A stretch of 64,000 nucleotides of DNA from a virus, in the IMG/VR virus record IMGVR_UViG_3300005327_000002, positions 1-64,000 of that record; one strand, given 5' to 3'. The first letter of the stretch is position 1, and the number at the start of each line of letters is the position of its first letter. The notes below the pieces were generated by a model that was given only the letters and a program-made list of their open reading frames with translations, ran no database searches and was not told where the DNA came from. Position numbers and translations under genes: made by a program. Below, one piece after another: positions 7,998 to 16,792 of this stretch.

Positions 7998-8672
7998 TCA
8001 CTGCTCCACCCCTGGCAGGTACGTGTCCACGGCGACCTCCAGGACCACGGGGGTCTCCCCGGTGACGTGCTCGGAGGCCGGGGCGGTCCACACGCAGACG
8101 ACCTGGCGCACGGTCAGGTCGTCCCCGTCCAGCAGGCCCAAGGCGGCCGCCTCCTGGGTGTCGCCCTGGGTGACCAGGCCGTCCGAGTGCAGGCCGACCG
8201 TCAGCGGCGTGCCGGTGCGCTGGGTGTACAGGCGCTGCCAGCCGCCGGGCATCCGGTCTTCGGTGACCAGCTCCGGGACGAACTGCAGGACGGACCGGGC
8301 GATCCAGGACACGGAGTATCCGATGGTGCGCCCGTGCTTCGTGATGGTCCGGTCCCGGCGCAGCGCGGGCTGGCCGGACAGGAGCTGCGCCGCGACCCCG
8401 GAGGGGCTGGTCTCGGTGACGCGCCGGTAGGTGACCACGGTCCCGCTGGTGTTGGCGTCCACCAGCCCCTCCGCCTTCAGGGTGGCCAGCGCGGCGGAGG
8501 CCGTCTGAATGGCCACGCCGAAGTCCTCCGCGATCTTGCGTCGGGGCGGGAGGGTGTCGCCGTACGCCAGGCGGCCGCCGTAGATCGCGGCGCGGTAGTG
8601 GTCGGCGATGCGGGCCTGTGCGCCGGAGCGGGCCCGGCTGCGGCCGGTCGGGGTTTCGTTCGGGTCGGACAT
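7998..8672 (-). CDS. GntR-family repressor with UTRA domain (KorSA-like)
   Basis: A 224-residue regulator. The winged helix-turn-helix spans residues about 20-80 (RIADHYRAAIYGGRLAYGDTLPPRRKIAEDFGVAIQTASAA in outline). A UTRA-type effector domain follows to the end (YTQRTGTPLTVG...EVAVDTYLPG). In actinomycete plasmids and AICEs, GntR/UTRA proteins of this kind (KorSA, KorA/TraR) repress tra and spd genes and themselves. Its start abuts the divergent promoter region at 8.7 kb, which carries repeated GTCATAG sites. It is therefore the most likely master repressor of the transfer module to its right. A ribosome site (AAAGGAGAT) precedes the ATG. Confidence 0.8.
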   Translation of the reverse strand: MSDPNETPTGRSRARSGAQARIADHYRAAIYGGRLAYGDTLPPRRKIAEDFGVAIQTASAALATLKAEGLVDANTSGTVVTYRRVTETSPSGVAAQLLSGQPALRRDRTITKHGRTIGYSVSWIARSVLQFVPELVTEDRMPGGWQRLYTQRTGTPLTVGLHSDGLVTQGDTQEAAALGLLDGDDLTVRQVVCVWTAPASEHVTGETPVVLEVAVDTYLPGVEQ

Positions 8673-8709: not shown

Positions 8710-8756
8710 GTCATAGCTTAGTGCTTGACACCCTGTGTGTCATAGAACACTCTATG
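8710..8756. promoter_or_regulatory. Overlapping divergent promoters with GTCATAG operator repeats
   Basis: On the minus strand, ATGACA is followed after 17 nt by TAAGCT, reading into the GntR gene. On the plus strand, a perfect TTGACA (8725-8730) reads the other way, with a weak -10 near 8748-8756. GTCATAG occurs at 8710-8716 and 8739-8745, and its inverse CTATG at 8752-8756. The repeats overlap both promoters, as expected for autorepression plus control of the rightward module. Confidence 0.6.
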
Positions 8757-8872: not shown

Positions 8873-8935
8873 GACCGGCCGCATGAGCGCCGCCCCTACG
8901 CCGGGGGTGGGCGGGTTCGATGCCCGCGCCGGTCG
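8873..8935 (+). ncRNA. tRNA-like structure lacking a D-arm
   Basis: A perfect 7-bp acceptor stem (GACCGGC 8873-8879 with GCCGGTC 8928-8934) encloses a classic T-arm (GCGGG-TTCGATG-CCCGC, 8911-8927). The centre can form a 5-bp anticodon-like stem (GCCCC/GGGGT) with loop TACGCCG. That loop lacks the expected T at position 33, and there is no room for a D-arm (63 nt in all). No encoded CCA follows directly. It may be a degenerate tRNA, a tRNA mimic or the remnant of a tRNA attachment site. Confidence 0.45.
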
Positions 8936-9065
8936 CTGGCCACCCACCGCCGATCCGGGGAGGACGTCGTGGCCCGTCGTAGGAGGAACGATCCGGCCCC
9001 GGGCCAGGACCCGCTGCCGGGCATAGACGACTACCTCACCGGAATGGCGGCCCCGGGTGGTCACC

Positions 9066-9443
9066 ATGGGTCGCATGACGACCTTGGGAGAACGGACCTG
9101 GTACGCGATCCGTCGCGTGCCGCTGCAGAACAGCCCGCTGTGGGAGTCGCTGCAGAACGGTCAGATGGACCGGGACGTGCTGATGATCGCAGCCGACCCG
9201 GCGATGATCACGGCGGTGCGGGCGGCCGTCCGGATGACCGGCACGCCGGTCAGCAGGCAGGAGGCCGTGGCCCGGCTGCTGTACACCGCCGACCTGGGCC
9301 TGACCGGGCACCAGGCGCAGCAGGGTGCCGCCGCCGTGATCCGGTACGTGCGTAAGCGCAGGAACGAGAGGGAGGAGGCCCGCCGGTGCCCCGCGCCGCA
9401 AGCCGACTCATCGTCCGAGTCACCCGGCCCGATGGCCGCGTGA
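9066..9443 (+). CDS. Small hypothetical protein
   Basis: About 125 residues if ATG 9066 is used; GTG 9057 and ATG 9075 are alternatives, and none has a strong ribosome site. The sequence is protein-like: TWYAIRRVPLQNSPLWESLQ, then MIAADPAMITAVRAAVRMTG, then a basic helix VIRYVRKRRNEREEARR. A short upstream reading frame from GTG 8969 (MARRRRNDPAPGQDPLPG) overlaps in another frame and has a better ribosome site, so the true N-terminus is uncertain. It is the first gene of the rightward transfer-like module. Function unknown. Confidence 0.5.
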   Translation: MGRMTTLGERTWYAIRRVPLQNSPLWESLQNGQMDRDVLMIAADPAMITAVRAAVRMTGTPVSRQEAVARLLYTADLGLTGHQAQQGAAAVIRYVRKRRNEREEARRCPAPQADSSSESPGPMAA

Positions 9444-9553
9444 GTCGGACGGAGGTTCGGGAGACGTCCGGTGGCGCGCCCGCGCCGTCGGAGACCTACC
9501 GGGAGCTGTCGCAGGTCGGGTACCCGCCCTGCCGCTGCCCGGGCTGCAGGTAG
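9386..9553 (+). CDS. Very small Cys-tailed protein
   Basis: A 55-residue frame starting at GTG 9386 with a strong GGGAGGAGG eight nt upstream, overlapping the end of the previous gene. The N-terminus is basic (MPRAASRLIVRVTRPDGRV) and the C-terminus ends in PPCRCPGCR, three cysteines that could bind a metal. A strong terminator follows 15 nt later. No family is recognised; the ribosome site and codon bias argue that it is real. Confidence 0.55.
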   Translation: MPRAASRLIVRVTRPDGRVSRTEVRETSGGAPAPSETYRELSQVGYPPCRCPGCR

Positions 9554-9568
9554 AACAGAGCCCCACGA

Positions 9569-9629: not shown

Positions 9630-10748
9630 ATGGAGGAGACGAAGGCGCCGCCCCGGCAGACCCGGGTGTGGCGTGATCCGCTGAACCTGGCGGCGGTCGT
9701 GATCGCGGCCGTAGTGATCGTGGTGGGTATCCACAACACCGGCGGGGCCATCGGCTACTGGAACGCGATGGGCCTGGCGGCTGGCACGGAGCTGTTCGTG
9801 GGTATCGCGGGCGCGGCCAGCGTCACGGCGGCCCGCAACGGGACCACGGCGCTGGCGGCGCGCCGGATCATGTGGTCCATGCCGCTGGCGGCGGTGGTCG
9901 CCAACGTGGCGATCTACGCCGGGCGGCCGGACTTCCACTGGGCGCAGGCGATGATCAACGCGCTTCCGGCGGCCACCAGCTGCGCCGCGCTGGAGCTGAT
10001 CGCCTACCGCAAGCGCCTGGACATCGCGGCGGAGGACGGCCTGCCGGGCCTGCGCCGATCGGCGGCCGTCGACATCGAGCGGCGCACGATCGCCGACCGG
10101 TTGTCGGCGGACCAGCGGGACCGGGACCGGCGCCTGCAGCTGCGGGAGGCGGAGCTTTTCTTCTGGATCGCCCGGTATGAACGTAAGCGCGGCCCGTCGA
10201 AGTGGTGGGCGGAGCACCGGGTGTGGGGGCTGCTGCGCAGCGCCGCCCTGGACGACCCGGCCCGCACGCAGATGATGTCCGCGACGGTGGACGGCGCGCT
10301 GCGCACGTGGATCAAGGGCAACGGCGGGGCGGGCGCGCTGTCCCGCTTCGCGTCCGTGGCGGAGGTGCCCGGACAGCCGCCGGTGCTGCCGCCGTCCGAG
10401 GCGGACACGGGGGAGGACACCGGGCCGATCTACCTGTCCGACCCGGATGACACCGTCCCGGACAACCCCCCGGACAACGCGGACACGGACGATGAATCCG
10501 CAGGTCAGGCCCCGGACGGCGGGGAGGACAACGCGGACCAGGACCAGGACGTCCCGGACCTGGTCCCCACCGACTGGGACGACCTGATCCCCCTGGAACC
10601 GGGTGCGGCGGAGGCCGTCCAGACGCTCCTGGACCGGGGCCTGTCCGGCCCGGACATCACCCGGATTCTGACCGACCTCCGGCCGAACTGGGACAAGGCG
10701 ACGATCAAGCGCACCGTCCGCCGCAAGACGGCCGCCCAGAAGTCCTGA
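9630..10748 (+). CDS. DUF2637-like (Spd-type) membrane protein with C-terminal soluble domain
   Basis: A 372-residue protein; ATG 9630 follows GGAAGGAAG. Four transmembrane helices lie in residues about 20-120 (LAAVVIAAVVIVVGIH; ELFVGIAGAASVTAA; MPLAAVVANVAIYAG; ALPAATSCAALELIAY). A charged helical domain with many Arg follows, then a long Asp/Pro-rich linker (residues 255-310) and a C-terminal helical domain resembling a resolvase-type HTH (LLDRGLSGPDITRILTDL...DKATIKRTVRRK). DUF2637 proteins sit beside tra genes in actinomycete plasmids and are counted among the Spd or spread functions that pass DNA through septa. The position after the KorSA-like gene and before TraB agrees with this. Confidence 0.65.
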   Translation: MEETKAPPRQTRVWRDPLNLAAVVIAAVVIVVGIHNTGGAIGYWNAMGLAAGTELFVGIAGAASVTAARNGTTALAARRIMWSMPLAAVVANVAIYAGRPDFHWAQAMINALPAATSCAALELIAYRKRLDIAAEDGLPGLRRSAAVDIERRTIADRLSADQRDRDRRLQLREAELFFWIARYERKRGPSKWWAEHRVWGLLRSAALDDPARTQMMSATVDGALRTWIKGNGGAGALSRFASVAEVPGQPPVLPPSEADTGEDTGPIYLSDPDDTVPDNPPDNADTDDESAGQAPDGGEDNADQDQDVPDLVPTDWDDLIPLEPGAAEAVQTLLDRGLSGPDITRILTDLRPNWDKATIKRTVRRKTAAQKS

Positions 10749-14112: not shown

Positions 14113-14583
14113 ATGGCGAAGGACCTGATCCCCCGGGGTGACGGGAAGAAGCCGAAGAAGACGGCGGGCGAATGGATGGTGGACGCGGTGGTGGACACCG
14201 CCGTGGCCGCCGCCGGTGCCGTCAACTACGTCAACACCCAGGCCGCGATGCTCGCCCTGTCGGCCAAGTTGCGCGTCACCGTGGCCCGGGTGGAGGCCCT
14301 GCAGCGCCGCAAGCGCGCCCGGGCGCAGCAGGCCACCCGGGTGCACGGCCTGCTGGAGCGGGCCGGGGTCAGCGGGGAGGGCCTGGCCCGGGCGCAGGAG
14401 ACCGCCGACGCCATGGCCGCCCACGCCCAGGCCTGCGACGAACTGGCCGCCGAACTGGCCGGTGTGGCGCGGGACGCCCAGGCGGTGCAGCAGACGCACC
14501 AGGCCGAATACGGCCCGATCAAAGAGACGGTCGACGCAATGGGCGTCGACCAGGCCCGCGCCGGGTTCTACGAGACGAAGTAG
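14113..14583 (+). CDS. Helical protein of transfer module
   Basis: A 156-residue protein starting at ATG 14113, three nt after the preceding stop. A weakly hydrophobic segment (VDAVVDTAVAAAGAVNYV) near residue 25 is followed by a long Ala/Arg/Glu helical region (RVEALQRRKRARAQQATRVHGL). It lies between the ADK-repeat protein and the TraB-like ATPase with tight spacing, so it is a likely partner in the same complex. Not recognised by family. Confidence 0.55.
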   Translation: MAKDLIPRGDGKKPKKTAGEWMVDAVVDTAVAAAGAVNYVNTQAAMLALSAKLRVTVARVEALQRRKRARAQQATRVHGLLERAGVSGEGLARAQETADAMAAHAQACDELAAELAGVARDAQAVQQTHQAEYGPIKETVDAMGVDQARAGFYETK

Positions 14584-14596
14584 GAGGGGAACGCAG

Positions 14597-16792
14597 ATGC
14601 ACGCCCGATGGATCATCGCCCCCGCTGCCGCCGTGGTGCTGTGCGCCACCGGCAGCCCCGCCACCGCCCTGGTCGCCGGAGGAACCGGCGTGCTGGTCGG
14701 CGCCGGACTGCTGAAGACCGACTGGAGCAAGCTGGCCCACCGCACCCTGGAGTGGACCCGCCGGGGCCTGTGCGTGATCACCGGCTGCGCCCTGCACGCC
14801 TTCGCCGCGACCGGCCACCTGGAGAGCCCCGGCCTGTGGGCCGCCGGGGCCGCCTGGGCGGCGGGGTCCATGTTCCTGTGGCCCCGCCGGTCGCGGGCGC
14901 CGCGCCTGTCCCGCCAGGTCGTCCTGCCGCTGCCCGCGCCCCGGGTGGAGGCCATCGACCCGGAGGCCGACCGGCGGCGCACCTTCGAGATGGCCCCGGC
15001 GGCGTGGGCCGCCGACCCCCGGCAGGCCTGGAACCTGGCCATCGCCCGGGAGGCCGCCCCCGGGGTGACCATGCTGGAGTACACCGCCGGGGAGGACGGC
15101 GCCTTCACCGCCGTGCTGCACGCCGGGCACGGCCAGCCGATGCCGCACCTGGACCTGCGCAAGGTGGAGGCGATGGCGGGGCTGCCCGCCAAGTCCCTGG
15201 AGCTGGAGCCGGTGGAGGGCGCCAGCCCGTCCTACGGGCGGCTGCGCTCCTGGGGCTCCGGAGCGGCCTCCGACGGGTACGGCAGCGACCTGGAGCGGGA
15301 CTGGGCCCGGCTGGTGGCCGGTGCGGGCGGTCCGGCGCCCGGCACCCGGGTGCGGACCGTGCGCCGGGCCGACAACGGCGTGCGGGTGCTGATCGAGCGC
15401 AACGACGGGGAGCCGCTGTCGGTCGACGTCGCCCGGCTGGCCACGAAGCTGGGCCTGGGGGAGACACCGGAGCTGCTGGTGGTCGACAAGCGCAACGTCT
15501 CCGCCGTGGTGTCGATCTACGACCGGGACCCGCTGGCGTCTATGCCCAACGCGGCGCTGGAGCTGCTGCAGTGCAACGACGCCGGGGAGGTGACCCTGGG
15601 CCTGACCCACGACGGGAAGCCCGGCCGGATCAAGCTGATCGATCCGAAGCGCGGCGCAGTCCACTCCTTCGTCGTGGGCATGACCGGGTCCGGGAAGTCG
15701 CAGCTGGCCCTGCTGTGCGTGATCGCGGAGCGGGTCAACGGCATCGCCTCCCGGGTCCTGGACTGCGGCGGCGCCGGGATGCCGGAGCTGGAGGGCCGGG
15801 TGCCGTACTTCAAGGGCGTGCCCGCCGTCCTGCAGGAGCTGCAGCGCCTGACCCGGGAGGCCGCCTGGCGCAAACAGGAGCTGGCCCGCCTGGGCGTGGG
15901 TTCGATCGCCGACCTGGCGCCGGAGGACCAGCCCTTCCCGTACCTGAACGTCAGCATCGATGAGTTCAACGCGCTCTCCCGCTGGCCGGACGCCAAGGCC
16001 CGCAAGCGCGCCCGCGCGATCTGCGAGACGGCCGTCTCGGAGTGGCGCAAGCTCGGCATCGGCTTCCGCATCCTGGGCCAGTCGCTCCTGCTGGCCGACA
16101 TGCTGGGCTCCAACGTCCTGCGGGAGCAGGGCCGCTCCGGCGGCGGCGTCATGCTGCGGGTCGCCTCCGACATGACCGCCCGCAAGTCGCTGGAAGGCCT
16201 GGTGGACGACACGGACACGATCGTCAACGTCCCGCCGTACGTGCTGCGCCCCCTCACGGAGGAGGAGCTGCTGGCCGGGGCGGAGGAGGAGAAGCAGCCG
16301 ACCTACGGCGCCGGGTACGTCCTGGACGGCGCCCGGGCGCTGAAGTTCCGGGCGCTGAACGTCTCCCCGAAGATCATCACCGGGATGCTGGACGCCACCC
16401 ACGAAGTGCTCACCGGGGACGGCTGGCAGGGCGTGGAGGGCATGCCCGTCCCGGCTGCCAAGGGCGACGCTGACGACGAAGACGGGGACGACGACTACGG
16501 GGACGGGGAGGACTGGGCCGACGACGCGGACGACGATGCGGACGACCCGCAGGAGGAGGCGGACGGACCGGCCACCGTGGCGGACGTCATCCTGCGGGTG
16601 CTGGCCGACACGGACGACCCCATGCAGACCGCCGACATCGTCTCCGCCGTCCGGGCGCGCCTTGACGTCGGATCGGGGGCCGTGCAGAACAAGATCAGCG
16701 ACATGGCCCGCTCCGGGGAGATCGCCCGCCTCAAGCGCGGCCTGTACCGGCTGGCGAGCGTCTCGGGAGGTTCGAGTGGCGACGACGACTGA
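14597..16792 (+). CDS. TraB/FtsK-type DNA translocase
   Basis: A 731-residue protein; ATG 14597 was chosen for the perfect AGGAGGGG seven nt upstream. Three to four hydrophobic segments occupy residues about 4-95. The ATPase core has Walker A GMTGSGKS (361-368) and Walker B LNVSIDEF with D455/E456. A very acidic linker (about residues 620-650) precedes a C-terminal winged helix (DVILRVLADTDDPMQTADIV...KRGLYRLA). Actinomycete TraB proteins are membrane-anchored hexameric pumps that move double-stranded DNA between mycelia and recognise 8-bp repeats through their C-terminal winged helix. Context (GntR repressor, Spd-like genes) supports transfer rather than chromosome segregation. A packaging-related role in the phage cycle cannot be excluded. 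Confidence 0.85.
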   Translation: MHARWIIAPAAAVVLCATGSPATALVAGGTGVLVGAGLLKTDWSKLAHRTLEWTRRGLCVITGCALHAFAATGHLESPGLWAAGAAWAAGSMFLWPRRSRAPRLSRQVVLPLPAPRVEAIDPEADRRRTFEMAPAAWAADPRQAWNLAIAREAAPGVTMLEYTAGEDGAFTAVLHAGHGQPMPHLDLRKVEAMAGLPAKSLELEPVEGASPSYGRLRSWGSGAASDGYGSDLERDWARLVAGAGGPAPGTRVRTVRRADNGVRVLIERNDGEPLSVDVARLATKLGLGETPELLVVDKRNVSAVVSIYDRDPLASMPNAALELLQCNDAGEVTLGLTHDGKPGRIKLIDPKRGAVHSFVVGMTGSGKSQLALLCVIAERVNGIASRVLDCGGAGMPELEGRVPYFKGVPAVLQELQRLTREAAWRKQELARLGVGSIADLAPEDQPFPYLNVSIDEFNALSRWPDAKARKRARAICETAVSEWRKLGIGFRILGQSLLLADMLGSNVLREQGRSGGGVMLRVASDMTARKSLEGLVDDTDTIVNVPPYVLRPLTEEELLAGAEEEKQPTYGAGYVLDGARALKFRALNVSPKIITGMLDATHEVLTGDGWQGVEGMPVPAAKGDADDEDGDDDYGDGEDWADDADDDADDPQEEADGPATVADVILRVLADTDDPMQTADIVSAVRARLDVGSGAVQNKISDMARSGEIARLKRGLYRLASVSGGSSGDDD

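Follow-up and report, generated by a model that had tools for sequence, protein, structure and literature searches.

The window, by which is meant the whole 64,000-nucleotide stretch that was analysed, covers positions 1 to 64,000 of IMG/VR virus record IMGVR_UViG_3300005327_000002. The record comprises 80,091 bases and carries genes for a portal, a head-tail adaptor, a tape measure, a terminase, ERF and a primase. It also encodes a DNA polymerase A and a tyrosine integrase, the genes of which sit outside the window, and a 60-bp direct terminal repeat (record positions 1-60 and 80032-80091) makes it probable that the record spans a full circle. Judged by gene content, the source of the window is a Streptomyces-type phage-plasmid, because its phage genes coexist with a TraB/FtsK translocase like that of Streptomyces plasmids. 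The tRNA-like element described here sits in the 296-nt leader that separates a divergent GntR gene from the transfer operon:

7998..8672, minus strand: regulator of the GntR family, transcribed divergently to the transfer operon (Pfam GntR, E 6e-11)
8725..8730, plus strand: TTGACA, a putative -35 promoter box for the operon, read by eye
8741..8756, no strand assigned: palindrome CATAGA-ACAC-TCTATG, putative GntR operator, as read in the sequence
8873..8935, plus strand: tRNA-like element of 63 nt (acceptor, mini-hairpin, hairpin at the anticodon position, T-arm, discriminator G)
8957..8963, plus strand: GGGGAGG, read in the sequence as a Shine-Dalgarno-like site serving GTG 8969
9057..9443, plus strand: the operon's first ORF with coding-like character (128 aa), for which searches returned no relative
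9630..10748, plus strand: protein assigned by position, its gene standing where related plasmids have DUF2637
14573..16792, plus strand: TraB/FtsK-type DNA translocase, with tblastn matches in 234 plasmid records

The putative -35 box is preceded by TAGTGC, as is also the case in NZ_CP109351 (TAGTGCTTGACC), and a consensus promoter scan called no promoter in the leader. The GTG at 8969 starts 33 nt 3′ of the element and has a good ribosome-binding site; its frame is plausible for about 30 codons, after which the coding-like frame is that of the ORF at 9057 (window 8969-9443), a change that could reflect overlapping genes, a frameshift or a sequencing error. The latter ORF has a codon score of 0.33, whereas the training genes lie at 0.43-0.79 per codon. 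The protein at 9630..10748 shows 19-26% identity (alignment A3) and has no Pfam match, and the translocase matches Pfam FtsK_SpoIIIE at E 8e-4, which lies under the Pfam cut-off. An ORF running through the element (8883-9026) was rejected as coding, since it scored under all 209 coding pieces of equal length; 246 of 636 stop-free non-coding pieces scored as high. Small ORFs with similar terminal cysteine motifs were noticed by eye after the leaders of the window (9440-9555, YPPCRCPGCR) and of the related locus L102 (4880-5075, YPPCQCPQHRGA).

The original prediction had described a 63-nt tRNA-like element with a perfect 7-bp acceptor stem (here 7/7 Watson-Crick), a canonical T-arm (here of 5 bp) with the loop TTCGATG, no D-arm, and an anticodon-like loop lacking T33. 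Re-reading bore out the sequence, the coordinates and both arms, as well as the missing T33 (the 7-nt loop at the anticodon position is TACGCCG); a true D-arm is indeed absent, but its place is taken by a 3-bp hairpin, which has unpaired spacers on neither side. The parts, all on the plus strand, are:

8873..8879: acceptor 5′ strand GACCGGC, pairing with 8928-8934
8880..8889: 3-bp mini-hairpin CGC-ATGA-GCG at the D-arm position, from the fold
8890..8910: 8-bp hairpin at the anticodon-arm position, without T33, from the fold
8911..8927: T-arm GCGGG-TTCGATG-CCCGC (8911-8915 paired with 8923-8927), read in the sequence
8928..8934: acceptor 3′ strand GCCGGTC, from the pairing
8936: C74, conserved across the class described below

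The discriminator position, 8935, is G and is followed by CTGG, so that there is no CCA at the element. The computed fold has an energy of -43.4 kcal/mol (z -3.08), equalled by none of 200 shuffles and by 49 of 17,784 overlapping 63-nt windows of the record, and the arms stay paired in transcripts of 233, 303 and 401 nt (lowest computed pair probability 0.87); in one 541-nt context extending into the GntR gene, the acceptor pairing falls to a mean of about 0.3.

The element is not a callable tRNA. ARAGORN called none there at default settings or in mitochondrial mode; Rfam gave no match in the window at the gathering cut-off, and RF00005 none in the whole record at E 10, the best tRNA-clan score at the element being 15.6 bits against a cut-off of 47. 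Once its thresholds were lowered, ARAGORN made hundreds of calls across the window (222 at 80 percent); a single one overlies the element, in another register. As regards the features of a functional tRNA, a 7-bp acceptor and a canonical T-arm are present, while the D-arm with GG and the U33 loop are lacking (AUGA loop; UACGCCG). BLAST with 76 nt around the element returned protein genes or unannotated DNA, with no annotated tRNA among the matches listed. A first covariance model, R1, built from 27 tRNAs, gave the element 21.6 bits, a score that was partly circular because one of these tRNAs had been chosen for the element's T-arm. It was replaced by R2, built from 24 tRNAs and no plasmid element, with the tRNA sharing the T-arm omitted, although 10 of the 24 come from an array (L097) itself located through that T-arm. 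R2 ranks the element first in the window at 18.5 bits; the next place reaches 12.1, and the best in 100 kb of genomic control 14.3.

When 12 related loci were scanned blindly with R2, ten matches of at least 16 bits were obtained, of which seven lie on the operon strand in leaders or gaps of transfer operons (L104 x2, L102, L106 x2, L116 and L114; by plasmid, two in NZ_CP108706, one in NZ_CP109351, two in NZ_CP108648, one in NZ_CP060743 and one in NZ_CP108279), and three fall in coding sequences (L108, L110, L115). A third copy in NZ_CP108706 scores 14.8 bits. NZ_CP109351 has the same layout as the window, with an antisense GntR gene, a leader and then DUF2637 and TraB genes, plus an extra hypothetical gene annotated antisense between leader and DUF2637, and its leader holds a 73-nt element that ARAGORN calls tRNA-Leu-like. 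Elements in the same leader are also found in NZ_CP108648 and NZ_CP060743, and elements in intergenic gaps of the operon in NZ_CP108706 (three), NZ_CP108279 and NZ_CP108648. NZ_CP108279 is likewise a phage-plasmid, with terminase and portal; two of its adjacent gaps (L114, 9568-9960) contain hairpins nearly identical to each other (GGGTCCGG...CCGGACCC), which do not resemble tRNA. The 32-kb record of NZ_CP108706 (L112) resembles a head-to-tail dimer of a 16-kb unit, judged by its repeated gene table.

A further model, R3, was built from nine elements, that of the window included, and applied to 23 plasmid or element sources, the window's record and 20 control stretches. All matches of at least 28.8 bits are such elements, the best control reaching 26.7. 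The distribution is patchy: elements occur in five of the 23 related sources, and R3 found none in the other 18, SCP2 and pSV2 among them. In 392 genomes of one genus, R3 gave 48 matches of 46-50 nt at 44.9-56 bits in 41 genomes, counts that are lower bounds because of strict filters and because 15 candidates were scored per genome. Beneath 44.9 bits came chiefly matches of 73-84 nt at 38-40 bits, which by their length are probably tRNAs. The window element scores 29.9 bits, far under this short form, whose acceptor (GCCCCGG/CCGGGGC) and length (46-50 nt) differ from its own (GACCGGC/GCCGGTC, 63 nt), and it belongs with the longer, variable members.

Thirty of the short-form loci were fetched. 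Within 1.5 kb, 18 of them have an upstream antisense GntR gene (14 loci), a sense DUF2637 gene (12 loci) or both, and the orientation is the same throughout. The remaining 12 were viewed as stretches of about 16 kb: DUF2637 is in sense in L149 and L151, GntR is divergent in L156, three loci are near a P4-type primase, and L150 has no such neighbour gene in its stretch; in L148, L149 and L152, unlike in the window, GntR has the same direction as the element. A transfer operon thus fits 21 of the 30 loci, and some copies therefore lie outside transfer operons. ARAGORN called none of the 30, and Rfam at the gathering score none in the 18 loci with relatives. The distance to the next Shine-Dalgarno and start is 24-50 nt at 13 loci and 94-148 nt at another 13 (n=29, with L143 left out; two spurious 'starts' at +1 and one locus without a start account for the rest). 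BLAST with one short element returned 23 Streptomyces plasmid records among 64; the Streptomyces matches listed fall outside annotated genes where the records are annotated, while many of those listed from other genera are located in genes and have the look of chance matches. pFP11 and NZ_CP109332, a portal-bearing plasmid, have sense copies in intergenic gaps.

At the other end of the size range, the gap between gp13 and gp14 of phiC31 holds an 87-nt near-complete tRNA-like form (40.2 bits with R3), the counterpart of which is annotated as tRNA-Gly in phage Lilbooboo. This element of phiC31 and phiBT1 has an acceptor and a T-arm close to the short form and lies in sense about 40 nt before a start codon, as in the class, but it has a recognisable D-arm. 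The class thus spans Streptomyces plasmids, integrative elements and phages, with forms of 87, 73, 63 and 59-60 nt down to the widespread 46-50 nt, and its members have in common an acceptor stem stacked on a T-arm, usually a purine at 73, and C74. The window element has the 7-bp acceptor, the T-arm of 5 bp with a 7-nt loop, G73, C74 and the middle hairpin kind of the class (loop ATGA), and lies on the sense strand in the leader of a GntR/DUF2637/TraB transfer operon, its DUF2637-like gene being so assigned by position.

Structural conservation was followed in 32 distinct short elements (without L143), in which all 12 pairs are retained. Compensatory changes on both sides were seen at T-stem pairs 3 and 4, and at acceptor pair 7 once; the short-form acceptor is mostly invariant and is therefore uninformative on covariation. 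Nine long and short members show double changes in 10 of the 12 pairs, in an alignment (A7) that was fitted to the model and structure. The short forms have a 3-bp middle hairpin with the loop RNRAN, of which 93 of 96 cells are paired, whereas shuffles gave at most 86 (0 of 2000 as high), a comparison that overstates independence because the sequences are related. Position 74 is C at all 30 loci and position 75 T at 26. Neither the middle hairpin nor C74 was selected by R3, since they are outside the model or unpaired in it. A C after the discriminator is also found in the window, NZ_CP109351, NZ_CP108706 (all three), NZ_CP108279, NZ_CP060743, phiC31, pFP11, NZ_CP109332 and one NZ_CP108648 element; in the second NZ_CP108648 element, the frame set by the model gives C and then T. 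The original prediction was to fall if related elements lacked covariance: the wider class does show compensatory changes, but orthologues of the window element were not found. Its leader had no match in plasmids or phages, single-protein queries with the 9057 ORF, TraB and GntR found no relative in viral contigs, and GntR had none at E 1e-15 in the 392 genomes. Three short viral contigs share the portal, none of them extending to the element region, and a portal alignment against genome contigs found nothing. No close relative of the record was found in these searches.

Our preferred reading, with a probability of roughly 0.55, is that the window element is a tRNA-derived leader element of a GntR-controlled transfer operon and a long member of a recurring class. 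That this class of tRNA-like mRNA elements is real appears very likely, and the membership of the window element is nearly as well founded; that tRNA enzymes process the class is a more tentative proposition, with odds a little below even. Recurrence, sense orientation, position in leaders or between cistrons, and compensatory changes are observed features of the class. The suggestion of a regulatory RNA next to the transfer-module promoter thus survives, as related transfer operons repeatedly carry similar elements, in operon sense, in their leaders and gaps.

The phage-plasmid might once have had a tRNA, as many actinophages do, that lost its D-arm and survives by chance. The canonical T-loop, the longer relative in a phiC31 gap and the patchy distribution would agree with such decay, as would the exact occurrence of the element's 17-nt T-arm in a tRNA-Gly of the L097 array. 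The array (G200:C4 near 586,126) packs 18 ARAGORN tRNA calls into less than 2 kb; the T-arm itself occurs in 6 of 394 genomes, two of the cases being in ARAGORN-called tRNAs with different acceptors. Against decay, none of the 12 base pairs in acceptor and T-arm is broken, and the reduced form occurs in 41 of 392 genomes with compensatory T-stem changes and set distances to start codons, which makes this explanation unlikely. Equally improbable is a generic GC-rich hairpin cluster, acting as a stability element or attenuator in which tRNA-recognising enzymes have no part. Some gaps in the same operons contain ordinary hairpins that are not tRNA-like, so that a simple stabiliser could serve equally, and, taken as a whole, the 233-nt leader shows no unusual degree of structure (z 0.14). 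However, the T-loop motif, C74 and the geometry of 7 and 5 bp recur across otherwise different sequences, and no terminator-like site was found at the element.

Chance is a very unlikely explanation, in which a reader going through many windows would have singled out one of the numerous tRNA-like folds that GC-rich DNA is expected to hold. Arms of 7 and 5 bp in tRNA geometry with any loop occur at 8 places in the 80-kb record and at 54 outside tRNAs in 1,095,028 control bases, so that arm pairing by itself is unremarkable, and the original claim that both arms would hardly arise by chance fails for pairing alone. It holds for arms with the T-loop: with TTCRANN the element is the sole case in the record, and with TTCRA there was none outside tRNAs in the 1.095 Mb of control or in 12 Mb of Markov sequence, from which about 0.002-0.003 are expected per 80 kb by arithmetic. 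A relaxed definition (TTCNA, G-U allowed) gave four cases outside tRNAs in the 1.095 Mb, which favours chance, as does the silence of ARAGORN and Rfam; against this, the element is a clear outlier under the independent model R2, and its leader position and strand match three related plasmids. A still broader loop pattern was widened after the relatives were known and is hence of no use as a test; four of its ten matches (window 32033, L024, L110, L113) are not operon-gap elements.

The least credible reading is a DNA element, whether for attachment, for binding of TraB (clt) or for packaging. Inverted repeats on a conjugative element and the repeats reported in Streptomyces clt sites (PMC3583192) would suit it. 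Against it stand the operon-sense orientation, spacing linked to ribosome-binding sites, relatives with up to three copies in successive gaps of one operon, a T-loop where direct repeats are described for clt, and an integrase located elsewhere. The attachment-site remnant originally proposed is not supported, the tyrosine integrase being about 13.7 kb away on the circle and the longest run shared with 32 distinct tRNAs of the analysed loci being 11 nt.

Among known systems, the mascRNA of MALAT1 is likewise tRNA-like and about 60 nt long, and RNase P and RNase Z recognise it by way of its acceptor and T-arm; it is eukaryotic and lies at the 3′ end of a lncRNA. What RNase P requires of a tRNA is the portion kept by all forms of the class, the acceptor stem on the T-arm with C74; U75 in place of C75 is not its best context. 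RNase P acts on tRNA-like structures and on operon mRNAs, and the structures it processes in bacterial polycistronic mRNAs are tRNA-like and located within or between cistrons (PMC11143913); the present class, of putative substrates, differs in recurring across mobile elements in a conserved minimal form. The pseudo-tRNA tRNAOther of Bacillus cereus is also tRNA-derived, outside translation, part of a larger RNA and linked to mobile DNA. It differs in its Trp anticodon and its place beside a genomic island (PMC3399842), whereas the window element, which has neither a proper D-arm nor a proper anticodon loop, is of the kind found in leaders or gaps of transfer operons. Among the papers listed in literature searches, which took in only part of the subscription literature, none described such elements in Streptomyces transfer operons, so that their absence in print is not established.

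In the preferred reading of a tRNA-derived leader element, the element would be transcribed within the operon mRNA and fold into an acceptor/T minihelix. tRNA-processing enzymes would recognise it, RNase P at the 5′ end and perhaps RNase Z at the 3′ end, and it would set the 5′ ends or the relative stability of mRNA segments just upstream of ribosome-binding sites. Since the part required by RNase P is kept and RNase P acts on operon mRNAs, the class is taken to represent processing or stability sites made from tRNA. More speculatively, and with the balance somewhat against it, the class may be a new family of 'punctuation' RNAs: Streptomyces conjugative plasmids, integrative elements and phages would have converted tRNA genes into acceptor/T-arm minihelices, set in operon leaders and between genes, at which essential tRNA-processing enzymes of the host divide a polycistronic mRNA into parts under separate control. 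On this view, the window element would stand midway from a complete tRNA to the minimal form of 46-50 nt. As a candidate case of bacterial mRNAs that mimic tRNA, the class is concrete and widespread, and its natural members, that of the textbook phage phiC31 among them, show several stages of the reduction from tRNA to minihelix. It can serve as a marker of transfer operons in Streptomyces, and would make the use of RNase P by plasmids to organise operon expression a testable idea.
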